Shown: piece by piece, positions 194 to 8,249 of the stretch | How positions within the stretch are numbered: the stretch's first letter is position 1 | Layout of the letters: the number at the start of each line of letters is the position of its first letter | Source of the DNA: Deminuibacter soli | GTDB taxonomy: Bacteria > Bacteroidota > Bacteroidia > Chitinophagales > Chitinophagaceae | DNA length: 64,000 nucleotides | NCBI RefSeq assembly: GCF_003412455.1 | Contig: NZ_QTJU01000008.1 | Coordinates: forward strand, 1-64,000 | Direction of reading: 5' to 3' | Translations under genes and position numbers: made by a program | The notes under the pieces: model-generated | Seen by the model: only the letters and a program-made list of their open reading frames with translations | What the model was told of the DNA's origin: nothing | Database searches by the model: none

Positions 194-1849
194 TTGAAAA
201 CATGCCATCTAATTCTGCTGCTGGTGCTTACCTGCATCTGTGCATGCAGCAAACAACCTAAAACCGCTGCTTTTACCACAACCCTGGATTATGATAAAGG
301 CGAATCTTTTTTGTACAGGCAAAACGATTCTGCTTTTTACTACTTCAATAAAGTCGCGGCCAGCCAGAAAGATAGTTTACTGGTTGCCCTGGCTTATAAT
401 AACATGGCCGTGATTCAATCTGACGCAGGCGACTATTTCGGCGCACAGGAAAGCCTGCTGTTATCGCTTCAATATCTCAATGAGCAAAAGAAACTGGACT
501 ACAACTGCCTCTCTTCCGACTATAACGAACTTGGCACCAGCAGTCTTAACCTGAAAAACTATGACGCTGCGCTCGACTACTACAACCATGCTTTACAGTT
601 TGCAACTGACGCAGATGCTAAAACCATTGCCTTAAACGACAAGGCTGTTGCTTACTGCAAAAAGCAGCAGTACGGTGCAGCGATCGCCATTTACGATTCC
701 ATTATTAACAGCAGCCGGAATAATAAGAAAGAGTATGCGCGGGTATTGTCTAACCTGGCCAACGTAAAATGGCTGCAAAATTCCGGTTACGAGGCAGCAC
801 CTGAACTACACGCGGCACTGCAAATCCGCCAGGATGAGCAGGATGACTGGGGGCTGAATGCCAGTTATGCGCACCTGGCTGATTACTACCGTCAATCCCG
901 GCCAGATTCTGCCCTGCTCTATGCCCGTAAAAGGTATGCTGTTGCGCAGCAGTTGAATAGTCCGGATGATGAATTGGAAGCACTGGAAAAAATCATTCCG
1001 CTGAGTGCGCCGGGAGAAGTGCAGCAGTATTTTACACGCTACCATTATTTAAGCGACAGCCTGCAAACCAGGCGCAATGCTGCGAAGAACCAGTATGCCC
1101 TGATTCGTTATGACGCGGAAAAAAATAAAGCTGACAACCTGCGTTTGCAGAAAGACAATACAGAAAAAAGGATCCAGATTATACTGCAGCGGGTGTTTAT
1201 TGGGGGCATCGTTGTTCTTCTGGTCATTGTGTTATTTATGATCATTGCCTGGGACCGCAAGCGAAAGCAGCAGTCGGAGAATGCCATGCGCGAGCTTCGG
1301 CTTAAGACTTCCAGGAAAGTGCACGATGTGGTGGCGAATGGGTTATACCAGGTGATGACACAGGTGGAACACAACAAGCTGCAGAAAGAGCAGCTGCTGG
1401 ATGAAATAGAAAAGCTGTACGAACAATCGCGTGATATTTCTTATGAGCAACCGGAACCTGAGCCGGTTGATTACCCTACAGCACTGGCGCAATCACTTCA
1501 ATCATTCGGGAATGAGCATACCAAGGTATTGGTTGTAGGCAACGAGGCCGCCTTATGGGCGACTGTAAACGACCAGGCAAAAAAAGAACTGAAACACGTA
1601 TTGCAGGAACTGATGGTGAACATGCGCAAACACAGCGAGGCACAAACCGTGGTCGTAAAATTTGAACGGAAGGGTAACCGGGTAAAAATTCAATATACAG
1701 ATGATGGCGTGGGAGTGCCTGCTGCATTTAGTTATGGCAATGGATTAACCAATACGGAAAACCGTATTAACAGCATTAACGGCCAGATTAATTTTACCGG
1801 CAATACCCCCAGGGGATTGAAAATTGAGATTCATCTTCCAATTGCTTAA
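194..1849 (+). CDS. TPR-containing sensor histidine kinase (HisKA_3/NarL type)
   Basis: Two-component sensor of 551 aa. The N-terminus is a lipoprotein-like signal (CICAC, lipid Cys near residue 18). TPR-like helices fill roughly residues 50-290, a transmembrane helix spans about 334-354, and a dimerisation helix carries the H-box HDVVANGLYQ with His377 as the expected phospho-acceptor. The C-terminal HATPase has ELMVNMRKHS, DDGVG and GNGLTN motifs. The start is TTG, chosen because it alone includes the signal peptide; the next in-frame Met lies inside the TPR region. A response regulator follows after 8 nt and is the obvious partner. A lipid-anchor signal plus a later membrane helix places the TPR sensor in the periplasm (inference). 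The stimulus is unknown. Confidence 0.85.
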   Translation: MKTCHLILLLVLTCICACSKQPKTAAFTTTLDYDKGESFLYRQNDSAFYYFNKVAASQKDSLLVALAYNNMAVIQSDAGDYFGAQESLLLSLQYLNEQKKLDYNCLSSDYNELGTSSLNLKNYDAALDYYNHALQFATDADAKTIALNDKAVAYCKKQQYGAAIAIYDSIINSSRNNKKEYARVLSNLANVKWLQNSGYEAAPELHAALQIRQDEQDDWGLNASYAHLADYYRQSRPDSALLYARKRYAVAQQLNSPDDELEALEKIIPLSAPGEVQQYFTRYHYLSDSLQTRRNAAKNQYALIRYDAEKNKADNLRLQKDNTEKRIQIILQRVFIGGIVVLLVIVLFMIIAWDRKRKQQSENAMRELRLKTSRKVHDVVANGLYQVMTQVEHNKLQKEQLLDEIEKLYEQSRDISYEQPEPEPVDYPTALAQSLQSFGNEHTKVLVVGNEAALWATVNDQAKKELKHVLQELMVNMRKHSEAQTVVVKFERKGNRVKIQYTDDGVGVPAAFSYGNGLTNTENRINSINGQINFTGNTPRGLKIEIHLPIA

Positions 1850-1857
1850 ACCTCCGC

Positions 1858-2523
1858 ATGATAACAAAAGTATTAATAGCAGAAGACCACGAAAGTGCAA
1901 ATATCTCTGTACAGGCAACACTTGACGAATTGCAGATTCCCCATACGGATTATGTTTATTATTGTGATGATGCACTTGACCGGATAAAGAACAGCAAGCT
2001 GCGTAACGACCCGTATGATTTGCTTATCACAGACCTTTCATTTGAAGAAGACACAAAGGCACAGCAACTTGCAGACGGAGCAGCACTTATTGAGGCTGCA
2101 AGAAAGATACAACCAGAACTGAAAGTACTGGTATTTTCTGCAACACGTGAGGCTGCAGTTATCGAGAAGTTATTTAACAAGCTGGATATTGACGGTTATG
2201 TGCGTAAAGCAAGGAACGACGCAAAAGAATTGAAACAGGCGATCGCCAAAATTGCCGTTAACCAGCGCTATTTCCCAAGACACCTGATGGAGCTGATTAA
2301 ACAGAAGAATACCTATAACTTCAATGATTTTGATATAGCCGTATTATCGCTGCTGGCCAGGGGAACACGGCAGAAAGATATTCCTGAACACCTGCAAAAG
2401 AAGCAGATTAAACCATCCGGATTAAGCAGTGTGGAAAAGCGGCTTAATCAAATGAAGGAAGCATTTGGGTTTTCAACCAACGAGCAGCTGGTGGCTTTTT
2501 GCATAGAAACGGGCGTTATTTAA
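1858..2523 (+). CDS. Response regulator with LuxR-like C-terminal domain
   Basis: Protein of 221 aa. The receiver domain (about 1-125) shows acidic residues at E9/D10, the phospho-acceptor Asp59 in LLITDLSF, and a conserved Lys in VRKARND. The C-terminal third resembles a NarL/LuxR helix-turn-helix (ARGTRQKDIPEHL followed by SVEKRLNQMKEAFG), with a longer insertion between the helices than usual. It is transcribed with the kinase just upstream (8 nt gap). Its targets cannot be read from sequence; the gene run starting at 2608 is the nearest candidate because of position and a repeat at its promoter. Confidence 0.85.
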   Translation: MITKVLIAEDHESANISVQATLDELQIPHTDYVYYCDDALDRIKNSKLRNDPYDLLITDLSFEEDTKAQQLADGAALIEAARKIQPELKVLVFSATREAAVIEKLFNKLDIDGYVRKARNDAKELKQAIAKIAVNQRYFPRHLMELIKQKNTYNFNDFDIAVLSLLARGTRQKDIPEHLQKKQIKPSGLSSVEKRLNQMKEAFGFSTNEQLVAFCIETGVI

Positions 2524-2579
2524 GATTGAAAAGTTTAAGGTCGTTTACGGTTTCCCATAAAAAACAGTGTTTAACAGCA

Positions 2580-2639
2580 GCTACTTTTGAAACATAAACA
2601 CTGCAACATGAAAAAAGGATACTACGTTTCAAAAGTAGC
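2580..2639. repeat. 14-bp perfect inverted repeat over promoter and gene start
   Basis: GCTACTTTTGAAAC at 2580-2593 is the exact reverse complement of 2626-2639, with 32 bp between. The left arm contains the -7 element, and the right arm lies in codons 7-11 of the first gene. If transcription starts after the -7 box, the left arm is not in the mRNA, so a paired DNA-binding site is more likely than an RNA hairpin (inference). Confidence 0.6.
2582..2589 (+). promoter_or_regulatory. -7 promoter element TACTTTTG before the DUF4407 gene run
   Basis: TACTTTTG matches the Bacteroidota -7 consensus TAnnTTTG and lies 18 nt before the ATG at 2608. No clear TTG is seen at the expected -33 distance. The element lies inside the left arm of a 14-bp inverted repeat (2580-2593). 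Confidence 0.5.
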
Positions 2640-2817
2640 ACAAGACAATGGTGATCATGAGGTGCATGCTGAAGATTGCGCCTGGCTGCCCAAGCCTACA
2701 CACAGAACATACCTCGGGCAATTTGATAACTGTGCCGATGCCGTACGTGAAGCTAAGAAATACCATAACCAGGCAAACGGTTGTATATACTGTTCCAAAC
2801 CTTGCCACACGCAATAA
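2608..2817 (+). CDS. Small Cys/His-rich protein, unknown function
   Basis: Protein of 69 aa starting MKKGYYVSKV, with no signal peptide. It carries VHAEDCAWLP near the N-terminus, a central NCADAVREAKKYH helix and a C-terminal GCIYCSKPCHT, so HxxxC and CxxC-x3-C patterns that could bind a metal. I know similar short proteins in Bacteroidota only as hypothetical. An upstream TTG at 2587 was rejected as start because it overlaps the -7 element. First gene of the run leading to the DUF4407 and J-domain genes. Function not assigned. Confidence 0.65.
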   Translation: MKKGYYVSKVAQDNGDHEVHAEDCAWLPKPTHRTYLGQFDNCADAVREAKKYHNQANGCIYCSKPCHTQ

Positions 2818-2862
2818 CATATGCCTTGTGGTGTATTGTGAAAACGTTATCCGTACCGGCAA

Positions 2863-3084
2863 ATGAAAACGCTTTTATTTGTTTTACTGTTGCTCAGCAA
2901 CATTAAATGTGGCAACACCACTACAACGGTGTATGTATGTGATAGTACCGGTGCCATCAGGTATCACTACAAAGCAAATTGCCGCGGTTTAAGCAATTGC
3001 CAGCACCGCATTGTACAAACCACACTGGAAAGCGCCCAGAAAAGCAATAAAACGCTCTGTAAATGGGAGCAATCTGCACGCTAA
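2863..3084 (+). CDS. Small exported Cys-containing protein, unknown function
   Basis: Protein of 73 aa with a short hydrophobic signal (MKTLLFVLLLLSNIKC) whose Cys17 could be a lipobox Cys. The mature part holds VYVCDSTGAIRYHYKANC, GLSNCQH and a closing TLCKWE. The YH-x4-C then late C-x-W pattern resembles that of its upstream neighbour, which suggests a related zinc-binding-like fold, one cytosolic and one exported (inference from spacing only). Short proteins of this style occur in other Bacteroidota as hypothetical proteins. Gap to the previous gene is 45 nt. Confidence 0.65.
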   Translation: MKTLLFVLLLLSNIKCGNTTTTVYVCDSTGAIRYHYKANCRGLSNCQHRIVQTTLESAQKSNKTLCKWEQSAR

Positions 3085-3094
3085 TCATCAACTC

Positions 3095-3589
3095 ATGAAA
3101 TACTGGTGTTACCGGGTAGTAAAAAAGCTACGGTGGCTATCCGATTTCCGTAAACCCCGTTTTGCCAGCCTGGACTGCATAGACCTGGTGGTGGAAAACA
3201 GGCAATTATTGCTGCTAAGCTGGGATACTGTTCATGCAGGCAAAATACGCGTTAGTCCGGGCAACATTGTATACCGCAAACGAAACGGCGCCGCCGTATG
3301 CAGCCTGCCTGCAGGCACAGCCTGTGTTACAATCAAACTGAGTAATGTTTGGCGATCTGTCAAAACAGTATTACCGCTTAAACACGTACATATAGATGCG
3401 CAAACGCTACACTATTTCGATGCAGTTTTTCTTAACGCACTAACCTGTTCTATTGCAACTGTGCAACCTGGTTTTACCATGCCAGCTATTCAGCTAAAAA
3501 AGCTGCAACTGCAGCTACCGCTGACTATCAACGCTGCAGTATATAGTATATCCATTAATCAACCTCAACTGACCTACTATGTCCCGTGA
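3095..3589 (+). CDS. Hypothetical protein, 164 aa
   Basis: Reads MKYWCYRVVKKLRWLSDFRK from the ATG at 3095, 10 nt after the previous gene; a longer reading from 3011 would overlap that gene. No signal peptide or strong membrane helix. The sequence alternates hydrophobic and polar residues (VVENRQLLLLSWD, LKKLQLQLPLTINAA), suggesting a beta-rich fold. The 3' end overlaps the next gene by 11 nt, so the two are probably translationally coupled. I do not recognise the family. A role with the DUF4407 protein is inferred only from the overlap. Confidence 0.6.
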   Translation: MKYWCYRVVKKLRWLSDFRKPRFASLDCIDLVVENRQLLLLSWDTVHAGKIRVSPGNIVYRKRNGAAVCSLPAGTACVTIKLSNVWRSVKTVLPLKHVHIDAQTLHYFDAVFLNALTCSIATVQPGFTMPAIQLKKLQLQLPLTINAAVYSISINQPQLTYYVP

Positions 3590-4841
3590 TTTTTACCGGA
3601 GCTCACCACCTTCATTTCTTATGCGCTTATTCTGGAAAGCTGCAGGTGCAGACCGTTACATACTTGAGCGCAGCACTTATGGCGACCAGGTGAAATACCT
3701 GTGCCTGGGCGGCATTATTGTAGCAACAGGGCTTATGGCCGGCCTTGCAGGCGGGTATGCCTTCTATACCATTTTTGAGCCGCGGGGCAATGCCATCAAC
3801 TCCTTTAAAACGGCGGCAGATATTAGCGGTAATTACAACAGCATTGATATACCCACGATGCTGAAAGCGCTGGTATTTGGCATTATATGGGGACTAATGA
3901 TATTTAACCTCGACCGGTTTATTGTTTCGAGCACAGGTAAAGGAGATGGCACTGAAGAAATAACGCGGAAAGAATTGAAGGGAGCCCTGCCAAGGTTATT
4001 CATGGGCGCTATCATTGCTATGACAATATCAAAGCCGGTTGAGATAAGAATGTTTAAAACCGAAATAGATATCAAGCTGCATGAGAAACAGATTGAACAA
4101 CAGCAGGCATATAAGGCAAAAACCGATTCAATTTTCAATAGCGAGATTGCAAAGAAGGAAAGCGGGATTGAAAAGATAGAAGCAGAATTAACAGATAAAC
4201 GACAACGTTACAAAAAACTGGAGGATGACTATATTAAACAATGCGAAAATCGCTACCCCGGCCCCATAGCAGCTGCCATCAAACAACAGATGGATGCACT
4301 TGCCCAGGAAATTAAAGCACTCGAAAACAGTCCTGAATATGTAAAAGTAAAAGGCGAAAAAGAAGAAATTGAAAAAAGAAGGGAAGCTGCATTAAACCAG
4401 AGCCAGAAGTATGCTGCGGGCCTTGACGGGTTGCTGGAACGCATTAAAATATGCCATGAAATTTCCGGGCCTGTCATTTCCTTATTCATTACCCTGCTGT
4501 TTATGGCCATCGAGCTCACACCGATCTTTTTTAAGCTGATGCTGATCAAGAGCCCGTATGACTATATGGAAGAGAATATCAAAGAGCTGATTAAAGCAGA
4601 AAACGGGATTGAGATACAGTATAATTATTACCAGGACAGGGAAGGGCATGAAAGAGATAAAATAGTGCAACACCAGGTACTGCGGTTGCTGAAGGAAAAA
4701 ATAGCCCTGCTGGAGGCGCAAAGCCAGTTAAGCGAAGCAGCATTAAACCGGTGGACAGACAAAAAGAAAGAGCAGATTCATGACAACCCGGAACTTTTTG
4801 TAAACGAAACACAGCCACAGGATAAAGGCTTAGCGGTATGA
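3579..4841 (+). CDS. DUF4407 domain membrane coiled-coil protein
   Basis: Protein of 420 aa with DUF4407 layout: an N-terminal pair of membrane helices (around GGIIVATGLMAGLAGG and LVFGIIWGLMIFNLDRF), a third (LFMGAIIAMTISKPVE), a long charged coiled coil (about 165-290, rich in KKESGIEKIEAELTDKR-like heptads), a further helix (VISLFITLLFMAIELTPIFF) and a charged C-terminal tail. The family has no established function that I know. It overlaps the previous gene by 11 nt and the next by 4 nt (ATGA), which points to co-translation with both. The following split gene has the same layout and looks like a divergent paralogue. Confidence 0.8.
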   Translation: MSRDFYRSSPPSFLMRLFWKAAGADRYILERSTYGDQVKYLCLGGIIVATGLMAGLAGGYAFYTIFEPRGNAINSFKTAADISGNYNSIDIPTMLKALVFGIIWGLMIFNLDRFIVSSTGKGDGTEEITRKELKGALPRLFMGAIIAMTISKPVEIRMFKTEIDIKLHEKQIEQQQAYKAKTDSIFNSEIAKKESGIEKIEAELTDKRQRYKKLEDDYIKQCENRYPGPIAAAIKQQMDALAQEIKALENSPEYVKVKGEKEEIEKRREAALNQSQKYAAGLDGLLERIKICHEISGPVISLFITLLFMAIELTPIFFKLMLIKSPYDYMEENIKELIKAENGIEIQYNYYQDREGHERDKIVQHQVLRLLKEKIALLEAQSQLSEAALNRWTDKKKEQIHDNPELFVNETQPQDKGLAV

Positions 4842-5802
4842 GCCAGCACAACAGATCCTGGATGTTTTCACCCGAAAGCTTTGTAAGGCTATTGGGTGCT
4901 GAGTACTCGCTGATGCGCAGTGCAGGAGTTCTGCAACGGTTTTATATTTCTTCGTTGCTGATTGTAGCCATTATGCTGCTTACCTGGCTAAGCGTACGAT
5001 ATGCCATAGACCTGCTGTTTCATGCTATTATTATAGAAATAGCACTTGCCATATTCTTTTGCCTGCTGTGGTTTGCATTTATATTTTCCTGTTAAACACA
5101 TTTGCAAAAGAAAACAGCAGCAAGGGGATATTTACTTTTTCCAATGTCATCCGCATGGGGTTTATTGCATTCATGGGCTTTTTGCTTGCACAGCCGCTGG
5201 TTATTTCGCTGTATGCATCTAAACTATTACCAGCTGTTGAGCAATACAAGCAACAACTGCTGCTGTCGCACACAGCTAAAATTGATGCGATGGAGCAAGG
5301 GGAGATCGATAAGCTCATCGCCAGGAAAGCGTACTGTATGCAGCAGAAAAACACCTACGGCACAACTGTGTATAATATTGAGCTTGCTGCCATAGACAGC
5401 GGCATACAACGCATACAGCAAAGAATGGAAGCTTTCAGCAATGCAGCACAACAAACCATCGGCCGTAACAGCTTCTTCCTGTTTCGCGTACAAAAAGTTC
5501 ACCACAGGAACCCGGGTGCATGGTTGCTGACTTTGGCGATTGTACTATTGTTTTTACTGCCCGGTTACCTGGTGTATACCTTATCGAGTAAGCACGAATA
5601 TTACCAGCTGAAAAAACAACATGAAAAGGCGTTGATACTTGATGCCTATAAATTTTTCACCGACCGGTATTGCACATTGTTTGATGAGCCGGTAAGTATT
5701 TTTACCCGGTATGAGGATCCTCCCTTTAATACCAGGCGTAAACAACCGCCGGCTGCTGCACACACTGCTGATTTTCTTCAAAAATACCTTGAACAGCCTT
5801 AG
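4838..5802 (+). pseudogene. DUF4407-like paralogue interrupted by a -1 frameshift
   Basis: Two overlapping open frames, 4838-5095 and about 5059-5802, together make one protein of about 320 aa with the same layout as the upstream DUF4407 protein: paired helices, a helix ending MGFLLAQPLV, a coiled segment, a late helix (WLLTLAIVLLFLLPGYLVY) and a charged tail. Across the break, LLWFAFIF plus LLNTFAKENSS lines up with IIWGLMIFNLDRFIVSS of the neighbour. The switch is at the T-run 5084-5087, where one extra T would restore the frame. Possible causes are a sequencing error, a real mutation or ribosomal frameshifting; no classical X-XXY-YYZ slippery heptamer is present. Confidence 0.6.
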
Positions 5803-5817
5803 TTTATATTAACTGCA

Positions 5818-7746
5818 ATGGACTATACAAAGGACTATTACAGCATACTGGGTGTCGATAGCAAATGCACGCCGGAAACCCTGCGTGCAGCTTACCGCCG
5901 TTTGGCCAACCAACATCACCCGGATAAAAATCCTGGAGATGCTGCCGGGGCAGAAGAGCGCTTCAAAGCAATCAATGAGGCATATGAAGTGCTGAGCAAT
6001 GAGATTAACCGGGCTGTGTATGATGAATACCGGGCAGCACATGAACAAGTCACACAACTGAAACCTGCAACAACACACAACCCTGAACCCGTTTTTGAAC
6101 CTGGCAAAACAACCAGGACCAAAACCTACACAGTAGTACACGAACAAAAAGTATATGTACAGGGCACCATTGATATCAAGTTCCAGGGCGAGCCGGAGTT
6201 AACTGATACCTATGCCCAACAATGGGAACAGCGGTTTACGATCATTCCTACAGAAGTATTGGCAACCATCTTCTCATCACATATTTATAACGATCCGCCA
6301 GCTGAATACCTGCAAGCTTATGCGGCCGCACACTCCATGGCTACACCTTTAAAACAGCCGGTTACCTGCAGGGTGATGAATGCAGGTGAACAGGAATATT
6401 ACCAGCTTTGGTTATACGACATTCGTGTACAAGACCCTGTGCTGAAAGATATGGTACGGCATGAAGCACAGAGTTTTGGCACCTTGCAGGGACAAATGTT
6501 TGGTTATGTATTGCACCAGTACGAGGAAAACATAACGGAAGAATATACGGAGTATTCCGGCCCTACCGGGCGTGTGGAGACGAAAACCGATTCAGATTAC
6601 ATTTATACCAGGCAGGAATTTTATGCACCGGACGGTAGTACTTATTGGGCAAACTGGAAAAAGTACAGGATATATAAGCCTAAACCCGGCACACCGAAAA
6701 CAGACCCCACCACCAAGACACCTGTTTACAAGGATGACGACCGAAACCAGTCTGCCTGGTGGTGGCTGGTAGCATTGCTCCTCATTGTAATCATAAGGCC
6801 AGGGATCCTGCTTATTCTTGCTCCTTTCCTATTTCCGTTGCTGGTCATTTTACTGGCGCGGATTGCTTCCCTGTTTGCCAAACTGCTGCCGTGGCTGGGG
6901 GCCATTATAACCTGCCTGCTGTTGTTTTCTGCAATGTTTTCGCTGTTGCATACATCACACCGTGCAATGCGTGTTGTTCCACGCAGAAGTCATGCGCACA
7001 TCAATTCAGCAAGAGATGTTGTGCAGGGGCAGAATCAGCAGGCAGATACCATCATTCGCCATAATCTTCAATGGGAAGACAGGGATAGTACTCACTATGC
7101 CATACAACTTTCCATACCATCGTCTGCCATACATCAATCGGCCATTGCGCATGAACAAATGGATGAACAACAGTATGCTGCGCTGGGTATTGGCGCGGTA
7201 TACCGCTCTATGCTGCAAACCGATGATATTTATATAACATCTATGGCAGGCAGGTTCGATTCGTTGGCTAAAGCCAGGTTTCTTGACCGGCAACATGAGG
7301 CATCAATGATTGTGTCTTGCATTCAATCCATACCCTATGCACTGGTAGTAAACAAATCCTGTTATGACAACTATACTGATAGCTACGTAAATCAATACCT
7401 CTCGCGCTGCAATGGTGATTGTTGCAAGGGATACTCAAAATTTGGTGTACAATCACCTGTAGAATTTATGGGTGATTTAAAAGGAGATTGCGATACAAGG
7501 GCCCTCCTGTTGTATGATATACTGGGCAAGCTGGGTTATAAAGTAGCACTGCTGACCAGCACTTATTATAAACATGCATTGATTGCCGTTGACCTTGATG
7601 AACCACCATCAAACACTGCCATAGCCATCCCTGTTAACGGAGCACACTATTATTTATGGGAAACTACTGCTACCGGGTTTGGCCCCGGACAAATTCCTGC
7701 CAACCTTGCTGATATTAACCGCTGGAACGTAACATTACTTCAATAA
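5818..7746 (+). CDS. J-domain, membrane and transglutaminase-like fusion protein
   Basis: Protein of 642 aa. Residues 4-70 form a J domain with HPD at 34-36, the element that stimulates Hsp70. A middle region (about 90-290) of unknown fold is followed by a Trp-rich hydrophobic segment (about 310-380) giving two or three membrane helices. The C-terminal region reads like a transglutaminase/cysteine-protease fold: GDCDTRALLLYDIL with Cys558, YKHALIAV with His586, and YLWETT with Glu615 as a plausible triad. This topology would put the J domain in the cytosol and the enzyme on the other side or near the membrane (inference). It is the last large gene of the DUF4407 run, 15 nt after the split gene. 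Substrate unknown. Confidence 0.75.
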   Translation: MDYTKDYYSILGVDSKCTPETLRAAYRRLANQHHPDKNPGDAAGAEERFKAINEAYEVLSNEINRAVYDEYRAAHEQVTQLKPATTHNPEPVFEPGKTTRTKTYTVVHEQKVYVQGTIDIKFQGEPELTDTYAQQWEQRFTIIPTEVLATIFSSHIYNDPPAEYLQAYAAAHSMATPLKQPVTCRVMNAGEQEYYQLWLYDIRVQDPVLKDMVRHEAQSFGTLQGQMFGYVLHQYEENITEEYTEYSGPTGRVETKTDSDYIYTRQEFYAPDGSTYWANWKKYRIYKPKPGTPKTDPTTKTPVYKDDDRNQSAWWWLVALLLIVIIRPGILLILAPFLFPLLVILLARIASLFAKLLPWLGAIITCLLLFSAMFSLLHTSHRAMRVVPRRSHAHINSARDVVQGQNQQADTIIRHNLQWEDRDSTHYAIQLSIPSSAIHQSAIAHEQMDEQQYAALGIGAVYRSMLQTDDIYITSMAGRFDSLAKARFLDRQHEASMIVSCIQSIPYALVVNKSCYDNYTDSYVNQYLSRCNGDCCKGYSKFGVQSPVEFMGDLKGDCDTRALLLYDILGKLGYKVALLTSTYYKHALIAVDLDEPPSNTAIAIPVNGAHYYLWETTATGFGPGQIPANLADINRWNVTLLQ

Positions 7747-7757
7747 CACATACAACA

Positions 7758-8249
7758 ATGAAAACATTTTTACCCACACATATTATATTTACTTTTCCAC
7801 TGCTTATTGTTCAAAGCTACCTGGTTATTTATGTAAGCCTGCTATTATTGCGGCGCATGAAACTATTGAAACGACCCTACAGCGGGATGAACGATGCGGA
7901 GACGCTGCCGGCAGCCTTTATCCTGCTGGGCGTATTGATCATCTCTTCTGCCAACGCGCCTGCGCTATTCCAGGCTGTAAAATCCTTCGGTGAAACATAT
8001 ACTTCTATAACGGAACCTTTTCTGCTGTTTTACGCCAGGTCGTTCCTGGTTACCCTGTTCACCAGCCTGCTGTTTATTGCCCTGAACTTTGTGAACCTGC
8101 GTTTTTTGTTCCGGGCTGACTACCCGGTACCAAACTTGCCGGTAAACCTTCTGATCTGTGCAATAGGCGTTGGCTTCGCCATAATTTGCTGGTATACATG
8201 CAGGGAGGTTTTAGATAATATGACGCCCCAATACATCAATTTCCGGTAA
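7758..8249 (+). CDS. Hypothetical inner-membrane protein, four helices
   Basis: Protein of 163 aa with about four hydrophobic segments (IIFTFPLLIVQSYLVIYVSLLLL, AAFILLGVLIISSANAP, FLVTLFTSLLFIALNFV, LLICAIGVGFAIICWY). It starts 11 nt after the J-domain gene and closes the same-strand run before a terminator-like hairpin. No family recognised. Its context suggests a membrane partner of the J-domain and DUF4407 proteins; that is inference from position alone. Confidence 0.65.
   Translation: MKTFLPTHIIFTFPLLIVQSYLVIYVSLLLLRRMKLLKRPYSGMNDAETLPAAFILLGVLIISSANAPALFQAVKSFGETYTSITEPFLLFYARSFLVTLFTSLLFIALNFVNLRFLFRADYPVPNLPVNLLICAIGVGFAIICWYTCREVLDNMTPQYINFR

Follow-up and report, generated by a model that had tools for sequence, protein, structure and literature searches.

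What should be made of a gene that reads as one membrane protein only if two overlapping frames are joined? This question is raised by positions 4838-5802 of the window, by which we mean the whole 64,000-nucleotide stretch of Deminuibacter soli DNA that was analysed. We call the split gene D2, its intact DUF4407 neighbour D1, and the D. soli genome itself G000. A sequence-only reading of the window had joined the two frames into a single protein, had placed the switch at a TTTT run, and had offered error, decay or recoding as the cause.

One protein in two frames and its relatives

The 5' part of D2 lies in ORF A (4838..5095, forward strand), whose stop codon at 5093-5095 limits translation from 4838 to an 85-aa product; its last eight or so residues are outside the ancestral frame. 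The 3' part lies in frame B (5071..5802, forward strand), which is in register with the relatives from there on, the mechanically called ORF B being 5059-5802 (247 aa). The open stretch of frame B begins at 4903, so that both frames are open over 4903-5092, about 190 bases. Residues 2-83 of ORF A align with residues 3-85 of the homologue in G029 (58% identity), and residues 5-245 of ORF B with its residues 80-321 (56% identity). The two ORFs thus align end to end with the relatives' protein of about 320 aa, which bears out the sequence-only reading that they make one protein, of DUF4407 type and split over two overlapping frames. D2 is present as a single copy in G000 at E <= 0.01.

Taken alone, the two pieces of D2 score 12.6 and 16.7 bits against PF14362, where the Pfam gathering cut-off is 31.3. 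The intact homologues G029 and L006 score 34.2 and 44.6 bits, and on these scores D2 would belong with DUF4407. A structure predicted for L006 (mean pLDDT 75.8, pTM 0.57) has helices at residues 31-63, 66-96, 103-127, 227-248 and 255-282 and a long helical stretch at 129-212, and the break falls in helix 66-96, the second long one. Putative membrane helices can be read from the sequence of D2, and frame B shares a DPPF motif close to the C-terminus with all ten aligned single-frame relatives. A fold search with the L006 model gave 435 matches at E <= 10 and none at E <= 0.001, while a sequence search of solved structures with a D2 homologue gave one match, at E 0.39; together these suggest that there is no clearly similar solved structure for D2.

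Searching with frame B gave matches in 12 of 394 family genomes and five of the 99 nearest kin (G000 included in both counts) and in three named loci. D2 is one open frame in ten loci (G029, G417, G396, G175, G121, G199, G124, G361, G085 and L007), with a length of 311-330 aa except in G124, where it is 290 aa and near a contig end. D1 as a query matched 16 of the 394 family genomes at E <= 1e-60, again including G000, and seven further single-frame D2 loci were seen downstream of D1 (G015, G223, G009, G347, G027, L008 and G113), the homologue in G113 being the weakest (258 aa, profile E 2.6e-4). D2 is therefore single-frame in 17 of the 18 other loci with a homologue at the equivalent position; G068 was excluded from this count because its match could be D1 or D2. 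The exception is G427 (L057, about 4440-5767, minus strand), whose D2 homologue is interrupted by four or more frame changes and carries an N close to its start, and which looks like either an error-prone one-contig assembly or a decayed gene. One frame of G427, with residues matched by eye, runs unbroken across the homologous place, which rules out a break common to G427 and the window. Two separate proteins in relatives, the arrangement that had been named as evidence against a single gene, were not what these loci held, 17 being single-frame and the eighteenth broken in several places.

The gene cluster around D2

D2 sits within a cluster at 194-8249 that is common to Chitinophagaceae and whose core occurs in other Bacteroidota too. 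The genes given here with coordinates are on the forward strand. A TPR sensor histidine kinase (194..1849), in an upstream neighbourhood common to G029, G417 and G396, is followed by a response regulator (1858..2523) and by two small proteins, one of which (164 aa, 3095..3589) lies upstream of D1 and is kept in the relatives. D1 (3579..4841, 420 aa) scores 214.4 bits against PF14362 and is 80% identical in G029; its 3' end overlaps the start of D2 by 4 bases. Downstream of D2 come a DnaJ-domain protein (5818..7746, 642 aa, PF00226 83.4 bits), with putative membrane helices read from its sequence, and a putative membrane protein of 163 aa (7758..8249) that follows the DnaJ gene in relatives as well. 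The order in G029, G417 and G396 is sensor kinase, response regulator, a protein of about 70 aa, the 164-aa protein (184 aa in one of the three), D1, D2, DnaJ protein and the membrane protein of about 163 aa. Among distant relatives the kinase, regulator and small genes were elsewhere or not found in the stretch examined.

An alignment of four homologues shows C558, H586 and E615, in the C-terminal part of the DnaJ protein, to be invariant, a Cys/His/Glu set that we take to recall a papain/transglutaminase-type active site; Pfam showed no domain of that type in the protein, and its structure model is poor (mean pLDDT 62.5). Anti-phage defence models gave no convincing match to seven of the proteins, the best being E 0.0018 for the response regulator with a candidate model, and none of nine proteins was above the curated cut-off of an NCBIfam model. 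A description of the DUF4407/DnaJ cluster was not found in the literature searched on DUF4407 and on DnaJ/transglutaminase-like Bacteroidetes operons, and in two papers DUF4407 figures in table rows that name the domain. Our working guess is that the cluster may encode a membrane complex linked to the envelope, which would act in stress or processing under the control of the two-component pair.

Position of the frame change

The join was scored against a profile of the ten single-frame relatives, allowing a single frame change with one column unread. The best joins have their last frame-A codon at 5066 (summed score 108.1) or 5069 (107.7), followed by 5063 (104.2) and 5072 (102.9). Frame A fits well through two leucines at 5063-5068 and poorly from 5072, whereas frame B is poor upstream of 5071 and good after it, and over columns 80-86 (5071-5091) frame B scores +0.9 to +6.2 against 0 or less for frame A. 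At this point VCIYIFLLNTF of the window is in register with FICIYIFLLNTF, which G029, G417 and G396, the three nearest relatives found, read through the join with no frame change. Profile scores and coding signal thus place the most likely one-base change, in the -1 direction, at 5066..5074 on the forward strand. This interval has no run longer than three bases and is flanked by four-T runs at 5057-5060 and 5084-5087, the upstream one six bases away.

The run at 5084-5087, which the sequence-only reading had given as the switch, does exist, but the join proposed there, which leads from frame-A codon 5084 to frame-B codon 5089, scores 83.7 (88.3 one codon earlier), so that profile scoring rules it out. 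A join at the upstream run scores 98.0, which makes it less likely than the best (108.1) but still a candidate. That reading had aligned D2 with its DUF4407 neighbour and not with orthologues, and its claim of one protein survives the change of partner while its switch position does not.

Codon signal passes from frame A to frame B between about 5060 and 5080. Before 5078 frame A is ahead in three of four sixty-base blocks, the first being a near tie (-2.4 versus -2.1), and from 5078 to 5797 frame B is ahead in 10 of 12, with exceptions at 5498 and 5738. The best switch point on codons alone is 5081, downstream of the homology-based place, by a method that is coarse and blind to homology. The coding models were trained on long ORFs including frame B of D2, which makes the D2 score partly circular.

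Origin of the break

Relative-rate counts compared G000 with G029 against three outgroups. For D2 the G000:G029 changes were 31:27, 32:22 and 22:13 in the B piece and 7:10, 7:11 and 6:5 in the A piece, with all chi-square values below 3.84; no significant acceleration of D2 on the G000 branch was thus seen in a set of 24 uncorrected tests with related outgroups. The 243 frame-B codons from 5071 hold no further stop or frame change. Together these results suggest that the break is recent or not real. They also agree with the earlier observation that the downstream codons are intact, as frame B is open and its codon signal is kept, and old decay of D2 is unlikely. In these uncorrected tests D1 has more changes on the G000 side (40:13, 39:16 and 29:13), as does the DnaJ-domain gene (72:39, 81:44 and 52:40, the last not significant). 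In D1, 24 of 36 G000-only changes fall in residues 161-280, where G000 departs from a stretch common to the six relatives compared (EAR, three residues, VGPRA). The faster change of D1 (40:13) and the DnaJ gene (72:39) weakly favours a real change in this lineage, of whose genus G000 is the only genome in the comparison.

The sampled part of the assembly is not rich in frame breaks. A filtered scan of 537,646 bases of the genome flagged 7 of 79 overlapping same-strand ORF pairs as having no plausible start close to the first stop, D2 included. The other six (L065 13638, L069 8745, L070 7318, L074 709, L062 6368 and contig C23 185108) are candidates from this uncalibrated coding scan, and some are probably ordinary gene boundaries. 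A first coding-potential model (16 pairs) had missed the known D2 break. The next did flag it, but 68 of 131 pairs lacked an ordinary start in that scan, and many of these were taken for antisense shadows; an earlier filtered scan flagged it among 10 of 49.

Could the full protein be made from the sequence as it is, by programmed -1 frameshifting on the ribosome or during transcription? In favour of this, both overlapping frames are maintained, and the join lies between the arms of an imperfect inverted repeat (5047-5062 / 5104-5119, 81%). However, none of the 62 frame-A heptamers from 4903 on is an X_XXY_YYZ slippery heptamer, and no run in 5040-5100 exceeds four bases. A stimulating RNA structure was sought at 5072-5172, where folding is no better than in shuffles (z +1.07), and the fold over the inverted repeat (5040-5125) has a z of -0.82, a stability that 41 of 200 shuffles equal or exceed. 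Phase variation has no better footing at the frame transition, where only scattered short direct repeats were found, and Tandem Repeats Finder (score 30) returned no rows over 4838-5802. Nor was the transition found at a conserved site among the 18 other loci, the breaks in G427 lying elsewhere as judged by eye. A conserved four-T run had been suggested as the mark of recoding; the best join lies away from such a run and the three closest relatives have no frame change. With no heptamer, no unusual structure and no site conservation, recoding was rejected, and we regard it as very improbable. A regulated, non-canonical -1 frameshift peculiar to this lineage, which would do without a heptamer, be helped by the inverted repeat and make D2 in full within a two-component-linked DUF4407/DnaJ membrane system, would be extremely improbable. 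Two products assembling as a split D2 appear highly unlikely as well. The second could start at GTG 5068 or TTG 5059, both in frame B shortly upstream of the join, but its start would then fall midway along a predicted helix, a split at the join is absent from all 17 single-frame loci, and the first frame-B ATG comes 62 bases beyond the ORF A stop, after conserved sequence. Of the three causes offered at the outset, old decay and recoding are therefore unlikely, and an error or a recent mutation is the more probable reading.

Our preference, to which we would give an even chance, is for an isolated, non-programmed one-base frame break that arose as a recent inactivating indel. D2 would originally have been a single gene of some 320 codons for a DUF4407-type membrane protein; the loss or gain of one base near 5066-5074, within the second long predicted helix, would recently have broken it, leaving translation from 4838 to yield an 85-aa stub, and the 3' three quarters would still be gene-like because there had been too little time for erosion. 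We infer that the frame change exists in the living cell as well as in the assembly, and that D2 no longer functions; D2 is disrupted relative to its intact orthologues, as a recent pseudogene would be. There is also a substantial, if somewhat smaller than even, chance that D2 is intact in the organism and that the one-base change arose in sequencing or in building the consensus. Sequencing length errors usually fall in runs and not in short-run intervals, and the best interval, where no run exceeds three bases, speaks for mutation over error, although the four-T run six bases upstream makes this case slightly weaker and led us to move a small share of the weight to error. Coding bias and amino-acid constraint are preserved on both sides of a single break, and D2 lacks relaxed constraint, as error also predicts; such intact constraint favours either error or a very recent mutation. 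Error, in preference to a genuine indel, is moreover what Antonov et al. 2013 (PMC3711429) expect of singletons whose frameshift BLASTp validates. Against it stand an assembly (24 contigs, 5.83 Mb) that is 99.83% complete and 0.13% contaminated, with few candidate breaks in 538 kb, and the error-prone-looking one-contig G427, which has several breaks in D2 and not one.

The frame break itself is a minor matter, as bacterial genomes often carry single frameshifts, and the cluster holds more interest. A real mutation would amount to a natural knockout of a single component of a conserved cluster and may help in working out what D2 does for its partners.

Set beside known systems, D2 resembles the DUF4407 family (PF14362) in that D1 and two intact D2 homologues score above the 31.3-bit cut-off, and differs in being a short, divergent branch whose window copy is split, with neither piece above it. 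Its frame change is -1, like the programmed frameshifting of dnaX and transposases described in PMC3711429, whereas those sites differ from D2 in having a slippery heptamer, unusual structure and site conservation. By the criteria tabulated there, the D2 break is a singleton and not a programmed site. The single homology-validated transition of D2, which lacks a recoding motif and was found in no relative, is like the frameshifted pseudogenes and singleton fs-genes of GeneTack (Antonov et al. 2013).
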